Shown: positions 1 through 9,001 of the stretch, piece after piece
How the letters are laid out: the number at the start of each line of letters is the position of its first letter
Position numbering within the stretch: position 1 is the first letter of the stretch
NCBI GenBank assembly: GCA_946479335.1
Contig: CAMLFP010000226.1
Location: forward strand, 1 to 9,001
Direction: 5' to 3'
Origin: an uncultured Archangium sp.
Lineage (GTDB): Bacteria > Myxococcota > Myxococcia > Myxococcales > Myxococcaceae
DNA length: 9,001 nucleotides
Notes under the pieces: model-generated
What the model saw: the letters and a program-made list of their open reading frames with translations, nothing else
What the model was told of the DNA's origin: nothing
Database searches by the model: none
Translations under genes and position numbers: made by a program

Positions 1-918
1 GACGCGTCCGCGGTGGATGTCGACCGTGCGTTGCCACACGCGGAAACCCTCGTGCTGCACCCGCACCAGGTGGCGGCCTTCAGCGAGCGCGTACCGGCGC
101 GAAGGTTCATCGACCACGTCGCCATCGATGATGACGCGCGGGCTCGTGAGCGGCAGCGCGTCGGGCGTGGTGATGGAGAGCACCAGCGCACCATCGCCTG
201 CGGGAGCGAGGACCACCGGGGTGGGCCTCTCGGGGACGCGCAGCGACGCACGCAGGCCCAACCCCGCGCGCACGGTGACGCCGGAGTAGCGCGCGCCGCC
301 GAACTCCATGAACGCCGCGGCGTCGGCGCCGAGCCACCAGCGCGTGATGCCCGCGTCGCCCAGCTTCACCGCCAGCCACAGCCGCGGCTCAAGCTGCGTC
401 ACCTTGAGCGCACCGGTGAAGGGCACGAGCACCGCGCCCGTCAGCGAGCCCTGAAAGCGCTGATGCTCGAGGCCCACCTCGAGCGCGCCCGTGAGCCCAG
501 ACACCTGCAGCGGCGTCGGCGTCAACGCGGCGTCAAGCGCTGGCGAGCTGCTCCCGCCGTAGCCGAGCGCGCCGCGAAACCAGAAGCCCGAGGGCGCGAC
601 GTAGCGCGCCGTCAGCGCCACGGAGCCACCAGCGAAGCGCAGCAGCGGGCTCTTCACGCCGTCACAACACGAGCCATCGAGCTCGCTGAGCAGCGAGACC
701 TCCACGCCCAGAAACGGGAGGAACCAGCCCTGACCGCCGACCCGCAGCATCGGCGTGAGCGCGTTGTGCTGGGCGTGACCGTCGAGGTGCGCGTTGCGAA
801 CGTCGATGCCGCCCCCGACCTGGAAGTCGGCGCCGGGAGACTGGGCGCGCGCCGTCGTCGCGAACAGCGCGAAGGCGATCGGCGCCAGAAATTGCACTGT
901 CGTTAAACGAGAGATCAT
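1..918 (-). CDS. Secreted envelope protein, beta-rich with PEGA-like C-terminus (partial, 3' end missing)
   Basis: The frame is open from the ATG at 918 to the window edge (306 residues), so the gene continues beyond position 1. Residues 1-25 are a classical signal peptide: Arg4, a hydrophobic core at about 8-20, and an A-R-A cleavage site before Gln26. Residues 30-230 show alternating hydrophobic/polar stretches, many Gly and aromatic residues and no long helical hydrophobic segment, which suggests an outer-membrane barrel or beta-rich periplasmic protein. Residues 260-306 (VIIDGD, then YALAEGRHLVRV, then a Gly-Phe and a TVDIHRG ending) resemble a PEGA domain, a surface or cell-wall associated fold. 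The start is fixed: an in-frame TGA lies upstream at 962-964 with no other start codon between. No clear Shine-Dalgarno sequence precedes the ATG. The family is not recognised; envelope location is well supported, function unknown. Confidence 0.8.
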   Translation of the reverse strand, partial: MISRLTTVQFLAPIAFALFATTARAQSPGADFQVGGGIDVRNAHLDGHAQHNALTPMLRVGGQGWFLPFLGVEVSLLSELDGSCCDGVKSPLLRFAGGSVALTARYVAPSGFWFRGALGYGGSSSPALDAALTPTPLQVSGLTGALEVGLEHQRFQGSLTGAVLVPFTGALKVTQLEPRLWLAVKLGDAGITRWWLGADAAAFMEFGGARYSGVTVRAGLGLRASLRVPERPTPVVLAPAGDGALVLSITTPDALPLTSPRVIIDGDVVDEPSRRYALAEGRHLVRVQHEGFRVWQRTVDIHRGRV

Positions 919-974
919 CGGGGGGAGGCCTGTTCTTCGCGGCTCCCCCGGTGCCGTGTGTCAGGTCCCCTCTC

Positions 975-990
975 TGCGAACCGGGTGCCA
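975..990 (-). promoter_or_regulatory. Possible sigma-54 (-24/-12) promoter for the envelope gene
   Basis: On the minus strand this reads TGGCACCCGGTTCGCA. It matches the sigma-54 pattern TGGCACG-N4-TTGCA with the GG and GC dinucleotides exactly 10 bases apart, but the G after TGGCAC is C and TTGC is TCGC. It would place transcription start near 964, about 45 nt before the ATG at 918. Sigma-54 promoters are common in myxobacteria, but a single match of this quality can arise by chance in GC-rich DNA. Confidence 0.3.
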
Positions 991-1038
991 TCGGCGCAAG
1001 CCCGCAAGCACTCGGATTCGCGCAACGCGCGCGGCGTC

Positions 1039-1060
1039 GCTGCGTAGTTGCCAACGCAGC
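1039..1060. repeat. Hairpin-forming inverted repeat in the intergenic region
   Basis: Nine-base arms (GCTGCGTAG and CAACGCAGC) pair with one internal mismatch around a 4-nt loop. On the minus strand the loop is GCAA, a GNRA-type tetraloop. It lies about 50 nt downstream of the transporter stop and about 120 nt upstream of the next minus-strand gene. It could be a terminator-like or RNA-stabilising structure for the PHA operon (there is no T tract), or an operator for the downstream gene. The rest of this 193-nt gap holds a 10-bp palindrome (ACCGCGCGGT, 1091-1100) and the possible sigma-54 site. Confidence 0.4.
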
Positions 1061-1111
1061 AATGCAATGCGGTGGCGAATCACGACACACACCGCGCGGT
1101 CACGCCGAGGC

Positions 1112-1762
1112 TCAGACCGCGGGCGGCGGCGTCGCCTTGAACATCGGCCCCGAGGTGGGGAACACCGCGCGCCCCGCGGCCGGGTTCACCAGCAGCACGA
1201 ACGCGATGTAGAGCGCGATGACCATCAGCGCGACGGTCGCGATGCCCACGCCGGTGCCCAGCAGCTTGTTCCCGTCGCTCCCCACGTCGGTGAAGTGCCG
1301 CGCGATGCGCAGCACGTAGAGCAGGTCGATGTCGACGAGGAAGAAGAAGAGCAGCTTGCTGAAGAAGCCGAACGCGTACGTCAGCACCAGGAAGATGACG
1401 ATGAACGCGACGTCGACGGGGAAGACGACCGACGCGTCGGCCACGCCGCCGCGCGAGGCCTCGTCGAGCGCCCACCAGTTCATCACCCAGTTGAAGCTGA
1501 AGGTGGTGAGCAGCGTGCCGCCCAGGGTGTTCTTGTTCGCCAGCGACATGAGGCCGGCGATGAACTGACCGCCCGCGCCGAACAGCAGGCAGAACCACGC
1601 GGTGGTCTTGAAGAACATGGGGAACTTCGCCGGGTCGGCGGGCAGGTGCCCGAAGGCCAACGGCAGCAGCGCCGCGCAGCCGATGGCGAGCCCGAGGAGG
1701 CCCAGCGGCGTGGGGTCACCGAAGACAGGCGGCGGCGTGTTCGCAGATGCGGGAGCGCTCAT
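1112..1762 (-). CDS. AceTr (GPR1/FUN34/SatP) family acetate/succinate-type transporter
   Basis: A 216-residue inner-membrane protein with about six hydrophobic segments (roughly 18-38, 52-74, 80-98, 113-134, 136-152, 168-193). Family marks are visible: the N-terminal DPTPLGL at 16-22 (usually NPAPLGL), the FGAGGQFIAGL block at 61-71 followed by the NTLGGTL turn at 78-84, and the C-terminal GRAVFP at 198-202. Characterised members (E. coli SatP, yeast Ady2) move acetate or succinate with protons. Asn-to-Asp and Ala-to-Thr in the signature may alter substrate preference. The ATG lies 3 nt after the phaC stop, and its Shine-Dalgarno sequence GAGGA sits inside the last phaC codons, so translation is probably coupled. 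Inferred role: uptake or release of a short carboxylate that feeds, or results from, PHA turnover. Family call is strong; substrate is inferred. Confidence 0.88.
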   Translation of the reverse strand: MSAPASANTPPPVFGDPTPLGLLGLAIGCAALLPLAFGHLPADPAKFPMFFKTTAWFCLLFGAGGQFIAGLMSLANKNTLGGTLLTTFSFNWVMNWWALDEASRGGVADASVVFPVDVAFIVIFLVLTYAFGFFSKLLFFFLVDIDLLYVLRIARHFTDVGSDGNKLLGTGVGIATVALMVIALYIAFVLLVNPAAGRAVFPTSGPMFKATPPPAV

Positions 1763-1765
1763 GGT

Positions 1766-2743
1766 TCAGGTCCTCGAGGCCCACTCGATGAGAGCGGGGT
1801 ACAGCGTGTGAGACGACTGGCTCCCAGCGACTGCGCTGACGTGTCCCCCGGGCACGGGGAGCAAGGTCTTGTGCGTTGCACCAACGGCGTCGTTGAGCGC
1901 GACCGACGCGCGCGGCGGGCAGATGGTGTCGTGCTCGGCGGTGACGGTGAGCACCGGGCAGGTGATGGCCTTCAAGTCGACGCGGCGGCCCAGCACCTGG
2001 TGGCGGCCGTGCACGAGGTTGTTCTGCTGGTACAGCTCCGAGATGTACGTGGCGTACGTCGCGCCGGGGAAGGGGATGTAGTCGGACGCCCAGGCAGAGA
2101 TGGCGCGGTGGCTGCGCTGGTACGCGGCGTCCTGCGCGCGGTCCGCGGCGTTCACCTGCATCAGCAGCTCCTGCGTCGGGCGGAGCATGAAGAAGCCGGC
2201 CTGCATCTGGTGCTGGCTGACGTTGCCGGCCTCGGCGATGAGCTGCGCGTTGAACCAGCGCGCGTCGGTCATCCGCCCGGGGATGCCGGCGTCGGTGAAG
2301 TCGATGGGGCCCGCGACGTTGACGAAGCCCGCGTACAGCTCGGGGTGGAGCGCGGCGTGCACCGCCGCCAGCGTGGCGCCCATGCTGTAGCCCAGCACCG
2401 TCACCTTCTCGGCGCCGGTCTCGCGACGCACGCGGCGCACCATGCGATCGAGCCGCTTCAGCGCGTCGGCCCAGGTGAAGTAGCGGTCGTGTTCTTCGGG
2501 CACGCCCCAGTCGAGGAGCCACGTGTCGAAGCCGCCGTTGACGAAGGCCTCCGCGACCGACGCGCCCGGCGTGAGGTCGAGCACGTACCAGCGGTTGATC
2601 ATCGACGGCACCAACAGCACCGGCGGCGCGTCGGCGCTCTGCACGGCGTCAGACGCCATGAAATGAAACAGCGACGCCGACCCGTCGGTCAGCACCGTGC
2701 TCTTCCGCGTGGGCATCAACTGGAGGTCTTCGGAGTGGAACAT
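1766..2743 (-). CDS. phaC: PhaC-like PHA synthase (class III/IV fold) with Ser in place of the catalytic Cys
   Basis: A 325-residue alpha/beta-hydrolase-fold protein, close in length to class III PhaC (about 355). PhaC features: PVLLVPSMINRWYVLDL near the N-terminus, DTWLLDWGVPE (conserved DWG), the ELYQQNNLVHG and VDLKAITCPVL blocks, AEHDTICPP with the acid Asp272, and PGGHV with His301. The nucleophile box is G-Y-S-M-G with Ser120 (codon AGC at 2384-2386), whereas PHA synthases use Cys here. It could be a natural Ser variant of the polymerase, a PHA depolymerase or thioesterase, or a less active synthase. Start choice: a GTG at 2809 would add 22 residues encoded by a strong hairpin, so I prefer the ATG at 2743, preceded by AAGGA with a 4-nt spacer. 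It lies between phasin and transporter on the minus strand. Family certain, catalytic activity uncertain. Confidence 0.87.
   Translation of the reverse strand: MFHSEDLQLMPTRKSTVLTDGSASLFHFMASDAVQSADAPPVLLVPSMINRWYVLDLTPGASVAEAFVNGGFDTWLLDWGVPEEHDRYFTWADALKRLDRMVRRVRRETGAEKVTVLGYSMGATLAAVHAALHPELYAGFVNVAGPIDFTDAGIPGRMTDARWFNAQLIAEAGNVSQHQMQAGFFMLRPTQELLMQVNAADRAQDAAYQRSHRAISAWASDYIPFPGATYATYISELYQQNNLVHGRHQVLGRRVDLKAITCPVLTVTAEHDTICPPRASVALNDAVGATHKTLLPVPGGHVSAVAGSQSSHTLYPALIEWASRT
1868..1880 (-). promoter_or_regulatory. Possible internal PhaR-type site inside phaC
   Basis: The minus strand reads TGCAACGCACAAG, matching 11 of 13 bases of the element upstream of the phasin gene (TGCAGCGCACAAA). 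It lies within the 3' part of phaC, about 105 nt before the transporter start. It may be an internal operator for the transporter or a coincidence of codon choice. Confidence 0.2.
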
Positions 2744-2763
2744 CGCGTCCTTGTGGTGACGTG

Positions 2764-2796
2764 AAAGCCCCCTCCGTGATCGGCGGAGGAGGCTTT
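2764..2796 (-). terminator. Intrinsic terminator or attenuator between phasin and phaC
   Basis: Arms of 13 nt (2764-2776 and 2784-2796) pair around a 7-nt loop. In the minus-strand transcript the single non-Watson-Crick position is a G-U pair, so the stem is effectively complete, and the stem ends in UUU. It lies 22 nt after the phasin stop and 20 nt before the preferred phaC start. The U tract is short, so partial termination with read-through is likelier than a full stop. This would give much phasin and less synthase, as granule systems require. Confidence 0.65.
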
Positions 2797-2818
2797 GCGT
2801 TTGCTGCACCTGCGAACT

Positions 2819-3073
2819 TCAGGCCTTGAACGACTCAGCGGTCTTCTTCGCCGCTTCCGTCGACAGCTTGCGCCAGCCGGCCGCCAGCTCGTTGGCGTAG
2901 TTGAACTGGGTCTTGAAGAGCTCGTTGAGCTCGTCGAGCTGCGAGTTGCCGTACTCGATCCACTTGGTGTGGGCCTTGCCCATCTCTTCGAACATCTGCG
3001 TCATACGCGCCGACTGCTCGTCGAACAGCTTCTTCATCTGCTCCGCGCCGGGGATCTGGGTGGTCTCGGTCAT
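2819..3073 (-). CDS. Phasin-like PHA granule-associated protein
   Basis: A short, charged, almost entirely helical protein of 84 residues (MTETTQIPG start). The pattern of Met/Phe/Leu at helical spacing, KWIEYGNSQLDELNELFKTQF in the middle and a basic Ala/Lys C-terminus (KLSTEAAKKTAESFKA) fits the phasin family of amphipathic granule-coat proteins. There is no signal peptide or membrane segment. The ATG at 3073 is chosen over an upstream start at 3124, because the upstream 17 residues are low-complexity Pro-rich sequence spanning the predicted promoter and a repeat. A weak AGAGAG ribosome site precedes it. It sits between phaR and phaC, where phaP genes usually lie. Alternatives: a small PhaE- or PhaR(Bacillus)-type synthase subunit. 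Phasin identity rests on composition plus context. Confidence 0.75.
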   Translation of the reverse strand: MTETTQIPGAEQMKKLFDEQSARMTQMFEEMGKAHTKWIEYGNSQLDELNELFKTQFNYANELAAGWRKLSTEAAKKTAESFKA

Positions 3074-3110
3074 GGTGTGGCTCTCTTTCGTGGGTGGTGG
3101 AGGGGTTGTC

Positions 3111-3125
3111 TGCAGCGCCCACAAA
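3111..3125 (+). promoter_or_regulatory. Candidate PhaR operator, copy A (phasin promoter)
   Basis: Reads TGCAGCGCCCACAAA on the plus strand. It repeats the element at 3162-3174 with two extra C residues, starting 51 nt away, close to five DNA helical turns. It overlaps the -10 end of the predicted phasin promoter, where a repressor would act. Characterised PhaR proteins bind TGC-rich sites upstream of phasin and phaR genes; binding here is inferred. Confidence 0.5.
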
Positions 3126-3150
3126 GTAGCCAGCTCACGCGAAGCGTCAA
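3123..3150 (-). promoter_or_regulatory. Predicted sigma-70-type promoter of phasin (and phaC, transporter)
   Basis: On the minus strand TTGACG (3150-3145) is followed after 16 nt by TACTTT (3128-3123). The -35 matches 5 of 6 consensus bases; the -10 is weak but keeps the T-A start and final T. Transcription would begin near 3116, leaving a leader of about 43 nt before the ATG at 3073. The stretch is also AT-richer than its surroundings. Confidence 0.45.
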
Positions 3151-3158
3151 GACGAAAA

Positions 3159-3174
3159 TTGTGCAGCGCACAAA
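3159..3174. promoter_or_regulatory. Candidate PhaR operator, copy B (perfect inverted repeat)
   Basis: TTGTGC and GCACAA form perfect 6-bp arms around AGC (3159-3173), a typical dimer-binding palindrome. The same stretch contains TGCAGCGCACAAA (3162-3174), shared with copy A. It sits 8 nt upstream of the predicted -35 hexamer of the phasin promoter and just downstream of phaR. Confidence 0.55.
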
Positions 3175-3181
3175 TTCAACG

Positions 3182-3676
3182 TCATTTCTTGCGCTTGCGC
3201 AGCATGCCCTTGAGCTCATCGAGCTCGCGGCGGAGGTCGTCGACGTTGTTCGACGGCGGCGGCATCTGCATCGGCGGAGGCGCCGAGGGCTGGCCCCACG
3301 AGAAGGGCGAGTTGTTGGCGGCGTACTGGGTGAGCGCCACCAGCGGGTTGAAGGGCATGAAGCTCTGGGTGGTCTTCTTCGCCGTCAGGTACAGCTCGAG
3401 CGCGGCCTGCACGTAGCGGCCGAAGAAGTCGGCGAGGGCGTCGTCTCCGAGGCGAATGAGCTGGTGGAGCAGGGGAGACGGCAGCAGGTTCTGCCCGCCG
3501 CGGCCCTCCATGATGATCTGCGTGAGCGTCACCTGGGTGAGGTCGGCGCCGGTCTTGGCGTCGATCACCCGGCACTCCGCCCCGTCGTGGATGGCCTTCG
3601 TCAGGTCCTCCAGCGTGATGTAGCGGCTCGACTCCGTGTCGTAGAGGCGACGGTTGCCGTATTTCTTGATGAGCAT
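3182..3676 (-). CDS. phaR: PhaR, PHA synthesis regulator (DNA-binding repressor)
   Basis: A 164-residue cytoplasmic protein opening with LIKKYGNRRLYDTESSRYITLEDL, the hallmark of the PHB_acc_N DNA-binding domain (about residues 1-60). Residues 63-105 match the PHB accumulation region (LLHQLIRLGDDALADFFGRYVQAALE). Residues 129-144 are a Pro/Met-rich linker, and 145-164 a short coiled coil with a basic tail. Known PhaR proteins sense nascent PHA granules: free PhaR represses the phasin gene and its own gene, and granule-bound PhaR releases them. Start ATG 3676 fits the family N-terminus exactly; its ribosome site is weak. It is first in the minus-strand PHA cluster and divergent from the right-hand operon, so it could control both. 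Candidate operators lie on both sides of the gene. Confidence 0.95.
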   Translation of the reverse strand: MLIKKYGNRRLYDTESSRYITLEDLTKAIHDGAECRVIDAKTGADLTQVTLTQIIMEGRGGQNLLPSPLLHQLIRLGDDALADFFGRYVQAALELYLTAKKTTQSFMPFNPLVALTQYAANNSPFSWGQPSAPPPMQMPPPSNNVDDLRRELDELKGMLRKRKK

Positions 3677-3695
3677 GCCGGCGGCCTATTCTCAG

Positions 3696-3710
3696 TTTGT
3701 GTGCAATGCA
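3696..3710 (-). promoter_or_regulatory. Candidate PhaR autoregulatory operator, copy C
   Basis: The minus strand reads TGCATTGCACACAAA, 12 of 15 bases identical to copy A at the phasin promoter. It lies 20 nt upstream of the phaR start, in the 92-nt gap shared with the divergent operon. This position suits autorepression of phaR and possibly control of the plus-strand operon. Confidence 0.45.
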
Positions 3711-3731
3711 ACAGGGGGAGGCTTGACAGGG

Positions 3732-3754
3732 GCCTCTTGTGTGCGCCAAGAGGC
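3732..3754. repeat. Perfect 8-bp inverted repeat in the phaR/lipoprotein divergent gap
   Basis: GCCTCTTG and CAAGAGGC are separated by 7 nt (3740-3746). It lies 15-37 nt before the lipoprotein A ATG and just after a TTGACA (3723-3728) that resembles a -35 box, although no good -10 follows at the right distance. It may be an operator for an unknown regulator or a 5' leader hairpin that hides the only purine-rich stretch (AAGAGG) upstream of lipoprotein A. Confidence 0.45.
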
Positions 3755-3768
3755 GCGACTGTTCGCAT

Positions 3769-4758
3769 ATGCACAATCGACACGCCATCGTTGCTCTCGC
3801 GTTGCTCGCCGGGTGTTCGGGCGCGCCTCCTGTTGATTGTCGCGTCGGCGCCGACTGCGCGAGCGGCGTGTGTCTGCGCGACGGCACGTGCATGCCCATG
3901 AGCGTCGATGGCGGCGGCACTGGTGTCACGGGTGGCGGCTCCGGCACTGACGACGGCGGCGTGACGGGCGGCGGCTCGGGTAACGACGACGGTGGCGCGG
4001 TGACCGGCGGAGGGACGACGACCGGCGGTGGCACCGGCGACGCAGGCGCGACGTGCCTGCCGAACCACGACGGCACCATCGAGCGCGGCGAGGTCTTCTT
4101 CCAGCCGGGCCTGCGCGCGACCTTCAAGATCAGCGGCGCGGCGACCTTCGACACGCGCGGCACCGACGGCGGCTATTGGGACTTCACGGGCGCGCTCACG
4201 GGTGACGCGTCGAAGCTCGTGGAGACCAAGGCGCTGACGGGCGAGTGGTACGAATCGGAGTTTCCCGACGCGGGCTACGTGACGGAGCTGGGCGGCGGCA
4301 GCGACCTGCTCGGCGTGTTCTCGGCGACCAGCGACGCGCTGTACTTGCAGGGCGTGGTCTCGCCGACCGACGGGTCTTCGTCGACGCGCATCCGCTACAC
4401 GCCGTGGGTGAAGGTGATGGCCTTCCCGCTGACCGAGGGCGCGCAGTGGTCGACCGACAGCGATGTGAGCGGCCGGTACAACGGGCTCATCATCGGCTTC
4501 AACCTGCCGTACCAATCGGAGTCGTACACGATGCAGGTCGATCGCCGCGGGACCGCGAAGACCCCGTTCGCCGAGTTCGACGTGTTGCGAGTGCGAACGA
4601 CGATGGTGCGCTCGTTCAACACCGTGCCGTCGGTCACCATCCGCAGCTTCAATTGGAACACCGAGTGTTTTGGCACCGTGGCGACGGTCTCCTCGACCGA
4701 CAACGAGAGCAGCACCGAGTTCACCGACGCGTCTGAAGTGCGGAGGTTGTCGAACTGA
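3769..4758 (+). CDS. Lipoprotein A: Cys-rich head, Gly-rich linker, beta-rich domain shared with lipoprotein B
   Basis: A 329-residue protein. A short lipoprotein signal ends in LLAGC, so Cys16 would be lipidated. Residues 22-41 hold Cys24, 30, 35 and 41 in a CRVGADCASGVC-type motif, common in myxobacterial surface lipoproteins. Residues 47-92 are a Gly/Thr/Asp linker with a 12-residue repeat. Residues 95-329 are a beta-rich domain of unknown family that aligns along its length with the product of 7279-8109. Shared marks are C-x-PN-x-DG-x-I-x-x-x-E (96-107, like an EF-hand loop lacking its first Asp), GEW/SEFPD, FPL-x-x-GA-x-W, LRVRTT and ECFG-x-VA. Cys96 and Cys300 are both conserved and could form a disulfide. 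I prefer the ATG at 3769; a GTG at 3739 would add ten residues. First gene of the operon; its stop overlaps the hydrolase start by 1 nt. Function unknown. Confidence 0.85.
   Translation: MHNRHAIVALALLAGCSGAPPVDCRVGADCASGVCLRDGTCMPMSVDGGGTGVTGGGSGTDDGGVTGGGSGNDDGGAVTGGGTTTGGGTGDAGATCLPNHDGTIERGEVFFQPGLRATFKISGAATFDTRGTDGGYWDFTGALTGDASKLVETKALTGEWYESEFPDAGYVTELGGGSDLLGVFSATSDALYLQGVVSPTDGSSSTRIRYTPWVKVMAFPLTEGAQWSTDSDVSGRYNGLIIGFNLPYQSESYTMQVDRRGTAKTPFAEFDVLRVRTTMVRSFNTVPSVTIRSFNWNTECFGTVATVSSTDNESSTEFTDASEVRRLSN
3925..3996 (+). repeat. Two tandem 36-nt repeats encoding the Gly-rich linker
   Basis: Two copies of a unit encode VTGGGSG-T/N-DDGG, followed by a partial third (VTGGG). The copies differ mostly at third codon positions. 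The product is a flexible, acidic spacer between the Cys-rich head and the beta domain of lipoprotein A. Such repeats often vary in copy number between strains. Confidence 0.75.
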
Positions 4759-5651
4759 TGCGCGTGCTGTCCTTCATCGCGCTCGGCGCCGCCCTGTCTG
4801 GGTGTCTGCACTTCCACACCGGCGCCATGCCGGGTGAGCCGAAGACCGCCACCTTCGCGACGGTCGACGGCACGCGCGTGCGCTACGTCGATCAGGGCAG
4901 CGGGCCGGTGGTGGTGTTGCTCCACGGCTTCGCCTCCAGCATCGAGAACTGGGCGCTGGTGATGCCGGAGTTGGTGAAGGACTACCGCGTCATCGCGCTC
5001 GACCTCCGCGGCTTCGGGTGGACCGATCGGCCCGAGGGTGACTACTCGCCGGAGGCGCAGGCCAAGCTGGTGGCGGCGCTGCTCGAGGAGCGCGGCGTGA
5101 CGGGCAAGGTGTCGATCGTCGCGCACTCTTGGGGCTCATCGGTGGCGATGGCCTTCGCACTTGCACAACCGGAGCGCGTGGAGCGCATCGCGCTGTACGA
5201 CGCGTGGCTCTACGACAACCAGCTGCCGTCGATGTTCCACATGGCGCGCGCGCCGGGGCTCGGCGAGCTGCTCTTCGGGCTCTTCTACGACCAGCGCGCC
5301 GACGAGCGCATCACGCAGGCCTTCTACGACCCCGACTTCGTCACCGAAGCGCTCGTGGAAGACGTCGAGCGCGCATTCGAACGCCCGGGCACGCGCGCCG
5401 CGGCGTTGGCCACCGTGCGCGGCATGGACTTCACGCGCCAGGAGTCGAAGTACGCGCAGGTGAAGGTGCCGACGCTGTTGCTGTGGGGCCGGGAGGATCT
5501 CGTGACGCCGGTCTCCATCGGCGAGCGCCTCACGCGGTCGCTGCCGCAGTCGAAGCTGGTGGTGTACCCGCGCTGCGGCCACTTCCCGATGTTGGAAGCC
5601 GCCAGTGAGTCGACGCGGGAGCTCCGCGCGTTCCTCGGGGGGGCGAAATGA
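4758..5651 (+). CDS. Lipid-anchored alpha/beta hydrolase
   Basis: A 297-residue protein with a lipoprotein signal (hydrophobic 3-13, LSGC box, lipidated Cys16), followed by a full alpha/beta-hydrolase domain of the MhpC/haloalkane dehalogenase/epoxide hydrolase-like group. Visible residues: oxyanion HG at 56-57 (LLHGFASS), DLRGFGWTDRP at 82-92, nucleophile Ser124 in AHSWGSS (first box position Ala rather than Gly), acid Asp247 in WGREDLVTP, and His275 in CGHFPMLE. The triad is complete, so it should be active as an esterase, lipase or related hydrolase on the periplasmic or surface side of a membrane. It overlaps lipoprotein A by 1 nt (TGATG) with GGAGG 11 nt upstream, and overlaps the next gene by 4 nt (ATGA), so translation is coupled on both sides. 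The substrate cannot be read from sequence; short esters, lipids or PHA oligomers are possible. Confidence 0.9.
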   Translation: MRVLSFIALGAALSGCLHFHTGAMPGEPKTATFATVDGTRVRYVDQGSGPVVVLLHGFASSIENWALVMPELVKDYRVIALDLRGFGWTDRPEGDYSPEAQAKLVAALLEERGVTGKVSIVAHSWGSSVAMAFALAQPERVERIALYDAWLYDNQLPSMFHMARAPGLGELLFGLFYDQRADERITQAFYDPDFVTEALVEDVERAFERPGTRAAALATVRGMDFTRQESKYAQVKVPTLLLWGREDLVTPVSIGERLTRSLPQSKLVVYPRCGHFPMLEAASESTRELRAFLGGAK

Positions 5652-7276
5652 GCGCTCCCTCCCCTCACCGGAGCCTGCGGCTCCTGCCTCTCCCCAGGGG
5701 AGAGGCGTTTCTCGCGGTCATGCTCGTGAGCGTCAGCGCCTTCGCGTCGGGCCTCAGCGACCACGGCGAAGATCTCTTCCCCCGCGAGACGTTCGACTTC
5801 GCGCTCGACGGCTATTTCCGCACGCGCGGCGAGTGGCTCTACAATCTCGATCTCGATCGTGGCACCACGCCGTCGGGCAAGCCGCTCTACGCGGTTCCGC
5901 TGTCGGATCCGAAGGGCCAGTCGTTGATGGCGGCCGACATGCGCATGCGCACCGACCTCGCGCTCTACGCGCCGTTCGCGTCGGCCGCGGTGAAGCTGCG
6001 CATCGACCTCATCGACAACCTCACGCTCGGCTCCACGCCGGTGTTGTCGCCGGGCACGGGGAACGCGCCGACGCCCGCCACCACGCCGGGCCAACTGCCG
6101 AACACGCTCTTCCGCCTCAAGCGCGCGTACGGAGAGGTGCTCACGCCCGTCGGCTACTTCGCTGCGGGCCGCATGGGGAACATGTGGGGCCTCGGCATCA
6201 TGGCCAACGGCGGCGACTGCCTCGACTGCAACCTCGGCGACGCCGCTGACCGCCTCGCCTTCGTCACCTCCGTCGCGAATCACCTGTGGGCGCTGGCGTA
6301 CGACTTCAGCGCCGTCGGCCCGACGCAGTTGAAGAAGGACGGCTCGCGACAGCTGATTCTCGACCCGAGCACCAACGTGCACTCCGTGTCGTTCGCGTTC
6401 ATGAACGTGAAGGACGACAACTCGCGCCGCCGCCGTCGGCTCGCCGACAAGTGGACCGTCGAGTACGGGCTCCTCGCGTCGTACCGCTGGCAAGACAACG
6501 ACGTGCCCACCGACTACCTGCCGACGAGCGCGACCGCGCCACTGACGCCGACCTCGGTGATGCAGCGCGGGTACAAGGCGGGCGTCGGCGATGTGTGGCT
6601 GCGCGTGCAGGGCCCGATCTTCAAGGCGGAGCTGGAGTTCGCGCTGTTGGGCGCGGTCATCGATCAGCCCTCGCTGCTGCCCGGCGTGTTGCTGCGCGAC
6701 AAGGCGACGTCGCTGCAGGCCGGCGGCGCGCTCGAGACGACCTTCGGCGCGCCGGAGTCGGTGATTCAGGGCGGCCTCAACTTCGGCTTCGCGAGCGGTG
6801 ACCCGGCGCCCGGTTTCGGCGCGTACCCGCCGGCTGGGCAGACCTCGACGCAGCCCGGTGAACTCGATGGCCCGCAGGCGTCGCTGCCGACCGACACGCG
6901 CGTCGACAACTTCCGCTTCCATCCCGACTACCGGGTCGATCGCATCCTCTTCAATGAGATCGTCGGCACCGTCACCGACGCCTGGTACCTCCGCCCGTGG
7001 GGCCGCGCGCGGCTGCTGGAGTTCTCGAGCTACCAGTTGCTGCTCAACGCCGACGCGACGGTGAGCCGCGCGTTCTACGCCTCCAGCACGCCGGGCAACG
7101 ACCCGATGCTGGGCCTCGAGTTCCACGGGAGCCTCACGTGGGCCGCGAAAGACGGCTTCGACGTGATGGCGGAGTACGCGGCGCTGATTCCGTTCGCTGG
7201 TTTCGACAACCCCGCGCAAGGGCTGAAGGCCCGCCCGGCGCAGATGGCGCGAGTTCGTCTCGCGTGGAGATTCTGA
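5648..7276 (+). CDS. Outer-membrane beta-barrel-like protein, resembles TIGR04551 family
   Basis: A 542-residue protein with a signal peptide: basic n-region to Arg17, hydrophobic 20-33, likely cleavage after A-F-A (33). The mature part is rich in alternating amphipathic strands ending in Arg/Trp/Phe and finishes in W-R-F, the terminal aromatic typical of outer-membrane barrels. Recognisable blocks are DGYFRTRGEWLYNLDLDRG (54-72), RLKRAYGEVLTPVGYFAAGRMGNMWGLG (156-183) and GGDCLDCNLGD (188-198) with a close Cys pair. From memory these fit an uncharacterised myxobacterial family, TIGR04551; I have not searched it. An odd RRRRR run lies at 260-264. The N-terminal codons overlap a palindromic repeat (5670-5706), and the ATG overlaps the hydrolase stop. 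It lies between the hydrolase and lipoprotein B, suggesting a shared envelope role such as a porin or substrate channel. Function unknown. Confidence 0.82.
   Translation: MSAPSPHRSLRLLPLPRGEAFLAVMLVSVSAFASGLSDHGEDLFPRETFDFALDGYFRTRGEWLYNLDLDRGTTPSGKPLYAVPLSDPKGQSLMAADMRMRTDLALYAPFASAAVKLRIDLIDNLTLGSTPVLSPGTGNAPTPATTPGQLPNTLFRLKRAYGEVLTPVGYFAAGRMGNMWGLGIMANGGDCLDCNLGDAADRLAFVTSVANHLWALAYDFSAVGPTQLKKDGSRQLILDPSTNVHSVSFAFMNVKDDNSRRRRRLADKWTVEYGLLASYRWQDNDVPTDYLPTSATAPLTPTSVMQRGYKAGVGDVWLRVQGPIFKAELEFALLGAVIDQPSLLPGVLLRDKATSLQAGGALETTFGAPESVIQGGLNFGFASGDPAPGFGAYPPAGQTSTQPGELDGPQASLPTDTRVDNFRFHPDYRVDRILFNEIVGTVTDAWYLRPWGRARLLEFSSYQLLLNADATVSRAFYASSTPGNDPMLGLEFHGSLTWAAKDGFDVMAEYAALIPFAGFDNPAQGLKARPAQMARVRLAWRF
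5670..5706. repeat. REP-like double palindrome inside the signal-peptide coding region
   Basis: Two adjacent inverted repeats: GGAGCC-TGC-GGCTCC (5670-5684), then ten-base arms GCCTCTCCCC and GGGGAGAGGC around a single A (5686-5706). Together with CCCCTCACC just upstream, this resembles the bipartite REP-type palindromes often scattered between genes of GC-rich Proteobacteria. Here it lies within the first 20 codons of the outer-membrane gene and encodes the basic n-region of its signal peptide (around R8-R17). Confidence 0.65.
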
Positions 7277-7278
7277 AC

Positions 7279-8109
7279 ATGCGACGAGCGCTCTTGTGCA
7301 TCGCAACATTGTTGCTGGCGTGCGGGGACAACCGCACCATCGTGCCGAAGGAGGCGTATCAGGCGGGCTCCGTCGCGCCGCTCGCGTGCGTCCCCAACCT
7401 CGATGGGAAGATTGACGGCACCGAGCTGCAGGCCGCGCTCGACACGCCAGTGCACTACGTGGTGTCGCCCAACGGCGTCTCGCGCCCGGTGTCGCTGACC
7501 GGCGAAGTGAACGAGCAGGGCCAGCGCGAGTGGGACCTCGCCACCGACTACGCCGATGATCGCGTCGCGACGCTGCAAGCCTCGGCGCTGAGCGGCAAGT
7601 GGTTCGCCGCCAGCTTCCCCGATGGGCAGTTCGTTTCTCCGCTCGACCTCGGCGGCACCACGCTGGGCGTCTACCAGCACGACGGCGCGCACCTGCTGCT
7701 GCTCGGGTACGCGTCGAGCGAAGAGAACCCGTCGACCGGCCAGACGCGCGTCGTCTATTCGTCGCCCGTCGTCGTCTACAACTTTCCGCTCGAGGTGGGC
7801 GCGGAGTGGGTCAGCGTCGGCCAGGTCGTCAACGGCGTCATCCGCGGGTTGCCGTACGCGGGGCGCGACACGTACCAGTCGAAGGTCGAGGCGGCCGGCG
7901 TGCTGGATCTCCCCGATGTCTCGTTCACGCAGGCGCTGCGCGTGCGCACCACCACCACCATCGAGCCCGCGGTCGGCAACGTCATCGTGCGCCGCCAGTC
8001 GGGCTGGGTCTTCGAGTGCTTCGGCGAGGTCGCGCGCGCGACGGCGGCTGACGGCGAGACCAACGACGACTTCACCACCACCGCTGAGCTGCGTCGGCTC
8101 GGCCTCTGA
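7279..8109 (+). CDS. Lipoprotein B, diverged paralogue of lipoprotein A
   Basis: A 276-residue protein. The lipoprotein signal is MRRALLCIATLLLAC with lipidated Cys15. It lacks the Cys-rich head and Gly linker of lipoprotein A and goes almost directly to the shared domain. C-VPNLDGKIDGTE (37-49) matches the EF-hand-like motif, SGKWFAASFPDG (105-116) and FPLEVGAEW (169-177) match A, and LRVRTTTTIE (220-229) and ECFGEVA (246-252) close the domain. Cys37 and Cys247 match Cys96 and Cys300 of A, so a disulfide is likely in the periplasm or at the surface. The ATG is 2 nt after the outer-membrane gene stop, and its ribosome site GGAGA is inside that gene's last codons. The longer frame from 6997 is a shadow reading through the upstream gene. 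No known function; the pairing with A suggests two lipoproteins flanking one outer-membrane partner. Confidence 0.87.
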   Translation: MRRALLCIATLLLACGDNRTIVPKEAYQAGSVAPLACVPNLDGKIDGTELQAALDTPVHYVVSPNGVSRPVSLTGEVNEQGQREWDLATDYADDRVATLQASALSGKWFAASFPDGQFVSPLDLGGTTLGVYQHDGAHLLLLGYASSEENPSTGQTRVVYSSPVVVYNFPLEVGAEWVSVGQVVNGVIRGLPYAGRDTYQSKVEAAGVLDLPDVSFTQALRVRTTTTIEPAVGNVIVRRQSGWVFECFGEVARATAADGETNDDFTTTAELRRLGL

Positions 8110-8124
8110 AGAAGGAGCAGCACC

Positions 8125-8412
8125 ATGTGGGAACAATGGAAGAAGGGCTTTGACACCTGGGAGCAGAAGACCGCGGAGTACTTCGAGACGATGCTCAAGT
8201 CGCCGACGGTGCTGCAGCCGATGGGCGCGATGTTGTCGGCGAGCATGAAGGCCAAGGCGGCGACCGAGAAGGCCGCGGCGGCGTGGTGGGGCGCGTGGGG
8301 CCTGCCGACCAAACGTGAGCAGGAGAAGTCGCTCCACACGCTGAACCAGATCAACAGCCGCCTCATCGATCTCGAAGAGAAGCTCGCGGAGCTGCAGTCG
8401 AAGAAGCCCTGA
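8125..8412 (+). CDS. Small PhaE-like PHA synthase subunit / phasin
   Basis: A 95-residue helical, soluble protein. Its N-terminus is Trp-rich (MWEQWKKGFDTWEQKT), a central Ala/Lys helix carries AAWWGAWGLPTKRE at about 52-65, and residues 66-92 form a coiled coil (LHTLNQINSRLIDLEEKLAELQ). The GLPTKRE followed by a coiled coil resembles the C-terminus of PhaE, the partner that activates class III PhaC. At 95 residues it is far shorter than classical PhaE (about 350) and would be a minimal version. It has an excellent ribosome site (AAGGAG, 7-nt spacer) and lies 15 nt after lipoprotein B and 30 nt before the acyl-CoA synthetase. It is on the opposite strand from phaC, about 5.4 kb away. Alternatives: a phasin or another granule-targeting adaptor. 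Family assignment is by eye and moderate. Confidence 0.7.
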   Translation: MWEQWKKGFDTWEQKTAEYFETMLKSPTVLQPMGAMLSASMKAKAATEKAAAAWWGAWGLPTKREQEKSLHTLNQINSRLIDLEEKLAELQSKKP

Positions 8413-8442
8413 ACTCGCGGTCCCTCACGAAAGACCTCCACC

Positions 8443-9001
8443 ATGGACATCACGCCCTTCATCGACCTCAAGCCCGCGCCGCGCGCGATCTTCGACACGC
8501 TGCCGGAGCGCAAGACGCGCGCGCGCTTCATGCTGCCCACGCCCGACGGCGACTGGAGGTCGGTGACCTGGGGCGCGTACGCGAAGGGCATCCGCAACGC
8601 GGCGCTGTTCCTCGCGTCGTCGGGGCTGCAGTCAGGCGAGTGCGCGGCGGTGTTCGCGCCGAACTCGGTGGAGTGGATCTCCGCGGCGATGGCCATCCAG
8701 GCCGTCGGCGGCGTGATGGTGCCCGTGTACCCGGCCAACACCACGAGCCAGGCCGCGTACGTGGTGAAGCACAGCGACACCAAGGTGCTCTTCGTCGACA
8801 CGCCGGCGCTGCTGCAGCGCGTGCTCGAGGCGTGGAGCGACTACGGGCACGTCACGCACATCGTCACCATCTCCACGTTGGACATCGGGCCCATCATCGA
8901 AGGCATGCGCAGCAAGGGGCTGCCGACGCCGCCCGTCGCGGAAGTTGAGCGCAAGCTCGTCTCGTGGGCGCGCGTGCAGGCGCTGGGCGCGGCGCGTGAC
9001 G
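8443..9001 (+). CDS. AMP-dependent acyl-CoA synthetase, N-terminal part (runs off the window)
   Basis: The first 186 residues are visible. The pattern fits the N-terminal domain of ANL-family long-chain acyl-CoA synthetases: DGDWRSVTWGAYAKGIRNAALFL (35-57), an AAVFAPNSVEWISAAMAIQAVGGVMVPVYPANT block (68-100) that is the classic entry-side core, and YVVKHSDTKVLFVDT (106-120). The AMP-binding YTSGTTGxPK motif and catalytic C-terminus lie beyond 9001, so the substrate cannot be judged. The enzyme would make acyl-CoA from a free carboxylic acid, ATP and CoA in the cytoplasm. It is the last visible gene of the plus-strand operon, 30 nt after the PhaE-like gene, with only a weak ribosome site. The context suggests it activates acids destined for storage or beta-oxidation. 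Confidence 0.88.
   Translation, partial: MDITPFIDLKPAPRAIFDTLPERKTRARFMLPTPDGDWRSVTWGAYAKGIRNAALFLASSGLQSGECAAVFAPNSVEWISAAMAIQAVGGVMVPVYPANTTSQAAYVVKHSDTKVLFVDTPALLQRVLEAWSDYGHVTHIVTISTLDIGPIIEGMRSKGLPTPPVAEVERKLVSWARVQALGAARD

Follow-up and report, generated by a model that had tools for sequence, protein, structure and literature searches.

A PhaC-lineage protein of a probably myxobacterial group with serine in place of the catalytic cysteine

We analyzed a 9,001-nucleotide stretch of DNA from an uncultured Archangium sp. (contig CAMLFP010000226.1, positions 1 to 9,001; referred to here as the window) that encodes a protein of the polyhydroxyalkanoate (PHA) synthase, or PhaC, lineage. The catalytic Cys of PHA synthases is replaced by Ser in this protein (Ser120), and the same Ser is found in a diverged sister protein. 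We propose, at a little short of even confidence, that the Ser protein is a PHA-granule polymerase that would act on hydroxyacyl-coenzyme A (hydroxyacyl-CoA) with an acyl-O-Ser intermediate. PHA synthases are described by their Cys nucleophile and their lipase-fold relatives by Ser, and the purpose served by the Cys is a mechanistic question. The Ser clade, natural and with evolved co-changes, offers a ready test of it: either Ser can support polymerization in a suitable setting, or the exchange records how a polymerase became a hydrolase. Either answer bears on the engineering of enzymes for bioplastics.

Two protein searches, represented by the best 120 of 1077 and the best 120 of 1073 homologues, gave 153 aligned proteins, including that of the window. 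At the nucleophile position, Cys is present in 150 of the 153 (152 listed relatives plus the window protein) and Ser in 3. Besides the window protein, the Ser rows comprise P0002, which is 99% identical to it and comes from sources lgn and ena, and P0003, which is 76% identical and comes from source ncbi. A minority of the listed proteins are named. The name is “polyhydroxyalkanoate synthase” for those from one source and otherwise “alpha/beta fold hydrolase,” with assemblies of Archangium, Byssovorax, Myxococcaceae, Myxococcales, and Myxococcota as the origin; one is assigned to a “bacterium” and one to a “Deltaproteobacteria bacterium,” and a few carry other or unreadable labels. A scan of genome contigs yielded one locus (34% identical; titled Desulfotomaculum), and a plasmid collection contained 198 matching records, every one at <60% identity. 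The viral contigs scanned contained no relative.

A sequencing or assembly error at a single codon was considered, given that AGC (Ser) and TGC (Cys) differ by one base and that nearly all of the aligned proteins have Cys. The initial annotation had named Cys-type orthologues as the sign of such an error. Nearly all listed relatives are indeed of the Cys type, but the conclusion of an error did not follow, because P0002 and P0003 share with the window protein not only Ser but also K195M, G303S, and A310S. An error is thus highly improbable, and we reject it on the evidence of the 76%-identical P0003, which has the same Ser and the three other derived residues. Since this diverged sister also has Ser, we concluded that the Ser codon is real and fixed. 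Natural fixation of Ser, as suggested earlier, therefore holds for all three members of the clade.

The nucleophile codon lies where it was first placed, and Asp272 and His301, initially described as intact, are present in every aligned protein (Table 1). Relocation of the Cys nucleophile is ruled out: the window protein has Cys only at positions 262 and 275, and these positions also hold Cys throughout most of the 153 rows (149 and 148, respectively).

Judged from its sequence and modeled fold, the window protein is a PhaC by ancestry. The NCBIfam profile of class III PhaC, TIGR01836, matched residues 5 to 323 with 223 bits (E = 5.2e-66), which is below the curated cutoff of 365.3. Ten relatives compared with this profile (2 Ser-type and 8 Cys-type) scored 208 to 257 bits, all of them also below the cutoff; hence, as far as sampled, the group is a diverged sister of class III PhaC. 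The profile of PhaZ, an intracellular PHA depolymerase (TIGR01849), gave 21.6 bits, short of its cutoff of 300.75. The model has the PhaC fold, and solved PhaC structures lead its fold matches. We built a maximum-likelihood tree of 74 rows, consisting of 68 of the 153 proteins and 6 outgroup PhaC-like frames as the root. The Ser rows formed one clade with support of 100/100, within starred groups of Cys-type rows (the bootstrap was not fully settled); some of the surrounding Cys-type rows are named PHA synthase by one source. The closest kin of the Ser clade are P0004 to P0006, at a fork with support of 91/92 that was not starred. The simplest history would be a single change from Cys to Ser, retained across 24% protein divergence. 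Profile, tree, and fold rule out an ordinary hydrolase outside PhaC, the placement that the initial annotation had said would undo its assignment to the PhaC lineage; that assignment stands. The catalytic Cys of the G-X-C-X-G box is replaced by Ser in all three clade members, and the catalytic Asp and His are retained.

A survey of more distant homologues covered 39 loci and gave 31 PhaC-like frames of at least 250 amino acids and with E up to 1e-20; the other loci contained none of this kind. Counted by position, the frames represent 28 genes, with repeats among L001, L002, and L006 and between L008 and L027. The nucleophile is Cys in 30 of these frames, Tyr in 1, and Ser in 0. The Tyr frame, L042 (C7:5000-10134), is a class III-like PhaC with the codon TAC in the motif LLGIYQGG and with Asp and His kept; its genome has two further phaC copies with Cys, L040 and L041 (GVCQGG). 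PhaC copies with neither Cys nor Ser as the nucleophile therefore do exist.

At 25 columns, at least 30 of the 31 distant frames agree, and the window protein keeps 22 of them; the departures are C120S, A123, and position 322. The Gly that follows the box (G322) is present in 30 of the 31 distant frames and is Ala123 in the window protein (codon 2375-2377), like the Ala found in 120 of the 153 aligned proteins, Cys-type proteins included. Equivalents of Cupriavidus necator S260, D351, W425, D480, G507, and H508 are all retained. The window protein thereby has the residues common to class I and class III enzymes, namely S62, D148, W218, and G300 (C. necator S260, D351, W425, and G507), among which we take D351 to be common to the two classes. 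PMC10215190 includes S260, W425, and G507 in its residue list and places four residues near the CoA site. Three of these four are retained, as D56, L57, and H301.

The surroundings of the active site had been called intact at first. This is true of most PhaC columns, and the description missed K195M, G303S, and A310S, which together with C120S are common to the three Ser rows. Among the 150 Cys rows, Lys195 is found in 149, Gly303 in all 150, and Ala310 in 147 (Ser310 in 1). Among the 31 distant frames, Ser303 occurs in 4, Ser310 in 9, a residue other than Lys195 in 20, and Met195 in 0; that alignment was fixed at the length of A1 and is uncertain near residue 195, which also lies in a low-confidence part of the model. 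Since Ser303, Ser310, and residues other than Lys195 occur in Cys-type frames, these states by themselves are no argument against a polymerase and no proof of compensation. Ser303 is the state of the class IV PhaC of Priestia and of three other distant frames, and we count this in favor of polymerization. According to PMC5509742, Ala479 of the Chromobacterium enzyme is the equivalent of C. necator Ala510, with which Ser303 is aligned; in the same class I enzyme, A479S raised 3-hydroxyhexanoate (3HHx) incorporation about fourfold (PMC5509742 and PMC9760699). The co-changed states may mark tuning rather than loss.

The phasin-like protein encoded upstream of phaC, so named from its place, its size, and a subthreshold Phasin_2 match, has 43 homologues. 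We paired PhaC and phasin-like proteins by eye, from longest contigs of equal size and a shared source, an approach that indicates gene presence rather than nearness. Five pairs resulted: P0155 with Ser-type P0003 (9992 bases), which together with the window gives the one Ser-Ser comparison, and pairs that include the Cys-type proteins P0008, P0014, P0007, and P0011 (262137, 69573, 9422076, and 407544 bases, respectively). The phasin-like proteins P0154, P0156, and P0157 (85 to 92% identity) were paired with no PhaC. If the pairing is right, the phasin-like protein is 90% identical (P0155) in a sister lineage whose PhaC is 76% identical, which we also count in favor of a polymerase. The pairs suggest that the Ser and Cys versions of phaC sit with the same phasin-like gene. 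For this reason, and provided that the pairs represent the same contigs, the Ser gene looks like the ancestral copy rather than a side copy.

The window protein and P0003 differ at 6 of 77 near-invariant sites and at 72 of 238 others (Fisher p = 3e-5). The Ser gene is therefore not drifting freely, and this distribution of changes indicates that purifying selection persists in the Ser clade. These observations bear on the possibility that the protein is a catalytically weak or dead paralogue or a scaffold, with a working Cys-type PhaC elsewhere and the Ser copy tolerated or serving as a subunit. The Tyr-type L042, in a genome with two Cys copies, provides a precedent, and change in the Ser clade has been more rapid than among the Cys-type relatives. 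On the other side are the continued selection at near-invariant sites, the retention of Ser, Asp, and His in 3 of 3 Ser rows, and the apparent status of the Ser gene, by its phasin-like partner, as the original copy. We consider a paralogue of this kind unlikely.

The triad, the fold, three of the four CoA-site residues, and PHA-type neighbors are all kept; we therefore presume that it is an active acyl transferase, with a putative acyl-O-Ser120 intermediate. In the mechanism that we envisage, the starting point would be a class III/IV-like PHA synthase in a lineage that is probably myxobacterial; its Cys would have become Ser by a change of one base, with nearby residues altered alongside. 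The enzyme would act on hydroxyacyl-CoA at PHA granules. His301 and Asp272 would activate Ser120, which would accept the acyl group from the CoA thioester to form an oxyester. Attack on this oxyester by the 3-hydroxyl of the next unit would then lengthen the chain. In this scheme, we infer catalytic activity, a CoA substrate, polymerization rather than hydrolysis, and any compensating role for the co-changes.

We favor a polymerase because residues conserved across PhaC are kept, because the phasin-like protein is retained, and because a Cys296-to-Ser class II synthase reportedly made a new polyester, as stated in the title of Amara and Rehm 2003. The fuller proposal is that of a natural PHA polymerase working through a Ser oxyester, enabled by K195M, G303S, and A310S, with the ancestral phaC locus of a single lineage as the place of its fixation; this is a tentative proposal, to which we would give somewhat less than an even chance. 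Thioesterase domains with Ser triads can oligomerize hydroxyacyl chains, and polymerization chemistry on Ser is therefore possible.

Several points weigh against polymerization. Cys-to-Ser mutants of class I and class III synthases are reportedly nearly inactive, and we know of no assayed member of this PhaC group, whether Cys- or Ser-type. Ser triads, by habit, tend to hydrolyze. The fourth CoA-site residue, a His (H481), is Thr273 in the window protein (codon 1925-1927). His follows the catalytic Asp in 27 of the 31 distant frames versus only 11 of the 153 aligned proteins, and hence Thr273 is a group-wide trait. The 77 near-invariant columns were defined from the Cys rows, which favors departures in Ser rows; with that bias, there are 7 departures per Ser row versus a mean of 0.5 per Cys row (at most 3 in 149 of the 150 Cys rows and 14 in one). 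The 6 near-invariant differences in the Ser-Ser pair compare with 0 to 5 in 300 similarly diverged Cys pairs, used as leave-out controls, indicating that constraint has been altered. The stem branch of the Ser clade is 0.45 long, versus 0.045 to 0.13 for the end branches in P0004 to P0006 (the end branch of P0003 itself is 0.36). The ratio of PhaC distance to phasin-like distance is 2.90 for Ser-Ser (one pair) versus 0.81 to 1.74 for Cys-Cys (six pairs), with mixed Ser-Cys pairs at 1.11 to 2.35 (eight pairs). The long stem, the departures, and the fast rate are also compatible with a changed role or with partial relaxation.

A changed role could mean that the synthase was recruited as a hydrolase or transacylase, and that another enzyme makes the polymer. 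Candidate activities are those of an intracellular PHA depolymerase, of a thioesterase acting on hydroxyacyl-CoA, and of an enzyme of chain transfer. Lipase-type enzymes usually have a Ser nucleophile, and three more changes are fixed at near-invariant sites, one of them two residues past the catalytic His. The length of the stem branch and the faster change relative to the phasin-like neighbor point the same way, and GXSXG boxes have been described for PHA depolymerases (PMC2667194). Recruitment of this kind is possible, if doubtful; given the features that led us to favor a polymerase, we lean slightly toward polymerase over hydrolase or transacylase.

Among known systems, class III PhaC (TIGR01836; PhaE-PhaC) resembles the window protein in having the best family profile, matched over nearly the full length, a similar size, and the same Asp-His pair; the window also codes for a small PhaE-like protein, a possible partner subunit. 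The window protein differs from it by Ser for Cys, Ala for Gly after the box, and Thr for His after Asp. The Priestia PhaC (L009), which we take to be class IV and which is annotated in its record as class III subunit PhaC, shares the GY-nucleophile-MG box and the Ser after His-Val (GHVS). It differs in having Cys (GYCMGG) and an adjacent synthase subunit, PhaR, whereas the PhaR of the window is a DNA-binding repressor of the same name. In Pseudomonas aeruginosa, the class II PhaC variant Cys296Ser (Amara and Rehm 2003, by title) likewise has Ser in place of the catalytic Cys; that change was engineered, whereas the Ser of the window protein is natural, conserved across 24% divergence, and accompanied by other substitutions. 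A putative PhaC with a Ser in its box, GASAG, has been described from Streptomyces (SCO7613 and the S. aureofaciens “PhaC”; PMC8313934). Its authors report no other triad residues around the box and an effect that may be indirect, whereas the window protein has a full triad and PhaC ancestry.

In the literature examined, PhaC boxes are described as Cys-based, with variation at flanking positions such as the first Gly. In PMC4326521, the box given for environmental PhaCs allows S or C, so a Ser case could be among them. Within the open-licence literature searched, as examined in part, we came across no mention of a Ser-type clade within true PhaC; the sole claim of a natural Ser was that for Streptomyces. 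A literature search on myxobacterial PhaC returned nothing on the subject, judged by title.

Table 1. Positions of the Ser-type phaC gene, its key codons, and PHA-related neighbors in the window
Feature	Position	Strand	Details
PhaC-lineage alpha/beta-hydrolase-fold protein, 325 aa	1766..2743	-	Open frame; ATG at 2743, stop at 1766
Nucleophile codon AGC, Ser120, motif LGYSMG (residues 117-122)	2384..2386	-	Plus-strand bases gct
Catalytic Asp272 codon (TAEHDTICPP)	1928..1930	-	Residue 272; Asp in 153/153 rows
Catalytic His301 codon (PGGHVS)	1841..1843	-	Residue 301; His in 153/153 rows
Ser303 codon, aligned to Ala510 of C. necator PhaC	1835..1837	-	Two residues past the catalytic His
Small phasin-like protein (84 aa) encoded upstream of phaC	2819..3073	-	Phasin_2, 14.9 bits; cutoff of 24.9 not reached
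PhaR-type PHA synthesis repressor	3182..3676	-	PF07879, 94.3 bits; TIGR01848, 107.9 bits, just under the cutoff of 109.45
95-aa protein resembling the C-terminal part of synthase subunit PhaE	8125..8412	+	PF09712, 29.1 bits (cutoff, 25.7); TIGR01834, 31.5 bits (cutoff, 154.95)

Profiles and the homologue search supported the earlier assignment of phaR and phasin-like genes beside the Ser-type phaC (Table 1). No Cys-type PhaC was found among the nine frames of the 9-kb window scanned by profile. The PhaE-like protein lies 5.4 kb from phaC on the other strand; its PF09712 match is above the cutoff, and its TIGR01834 score is under the cutoff. It is possibly a minimal synthase subunit, or partner, of the window PhaC. 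Its gene precedes an AMP-binding, acyl-CoA synthetase-like frame.

The protein encoded downstream of phaC, at 1112-1762, weakly resembles acetate uptake transporters (20.3 bits; cutoff, 50). Two further proteins (3769-4758 and 7279-8109) have lipoprotein-like starts, judged by eye, and are 32% identical over 249 columns. Between them are encoded an alpha/beta hydrolase (4758-5651) and a protein that matches TIGR04551 (5648-7276). TIGR04551 was found in 0 of 398 genomes around the Desulfotomaculum locus and in 0 of 14 controls, which says nothing about absence. The set bounded by the two similar proteins is perhaps a duplicated unit.
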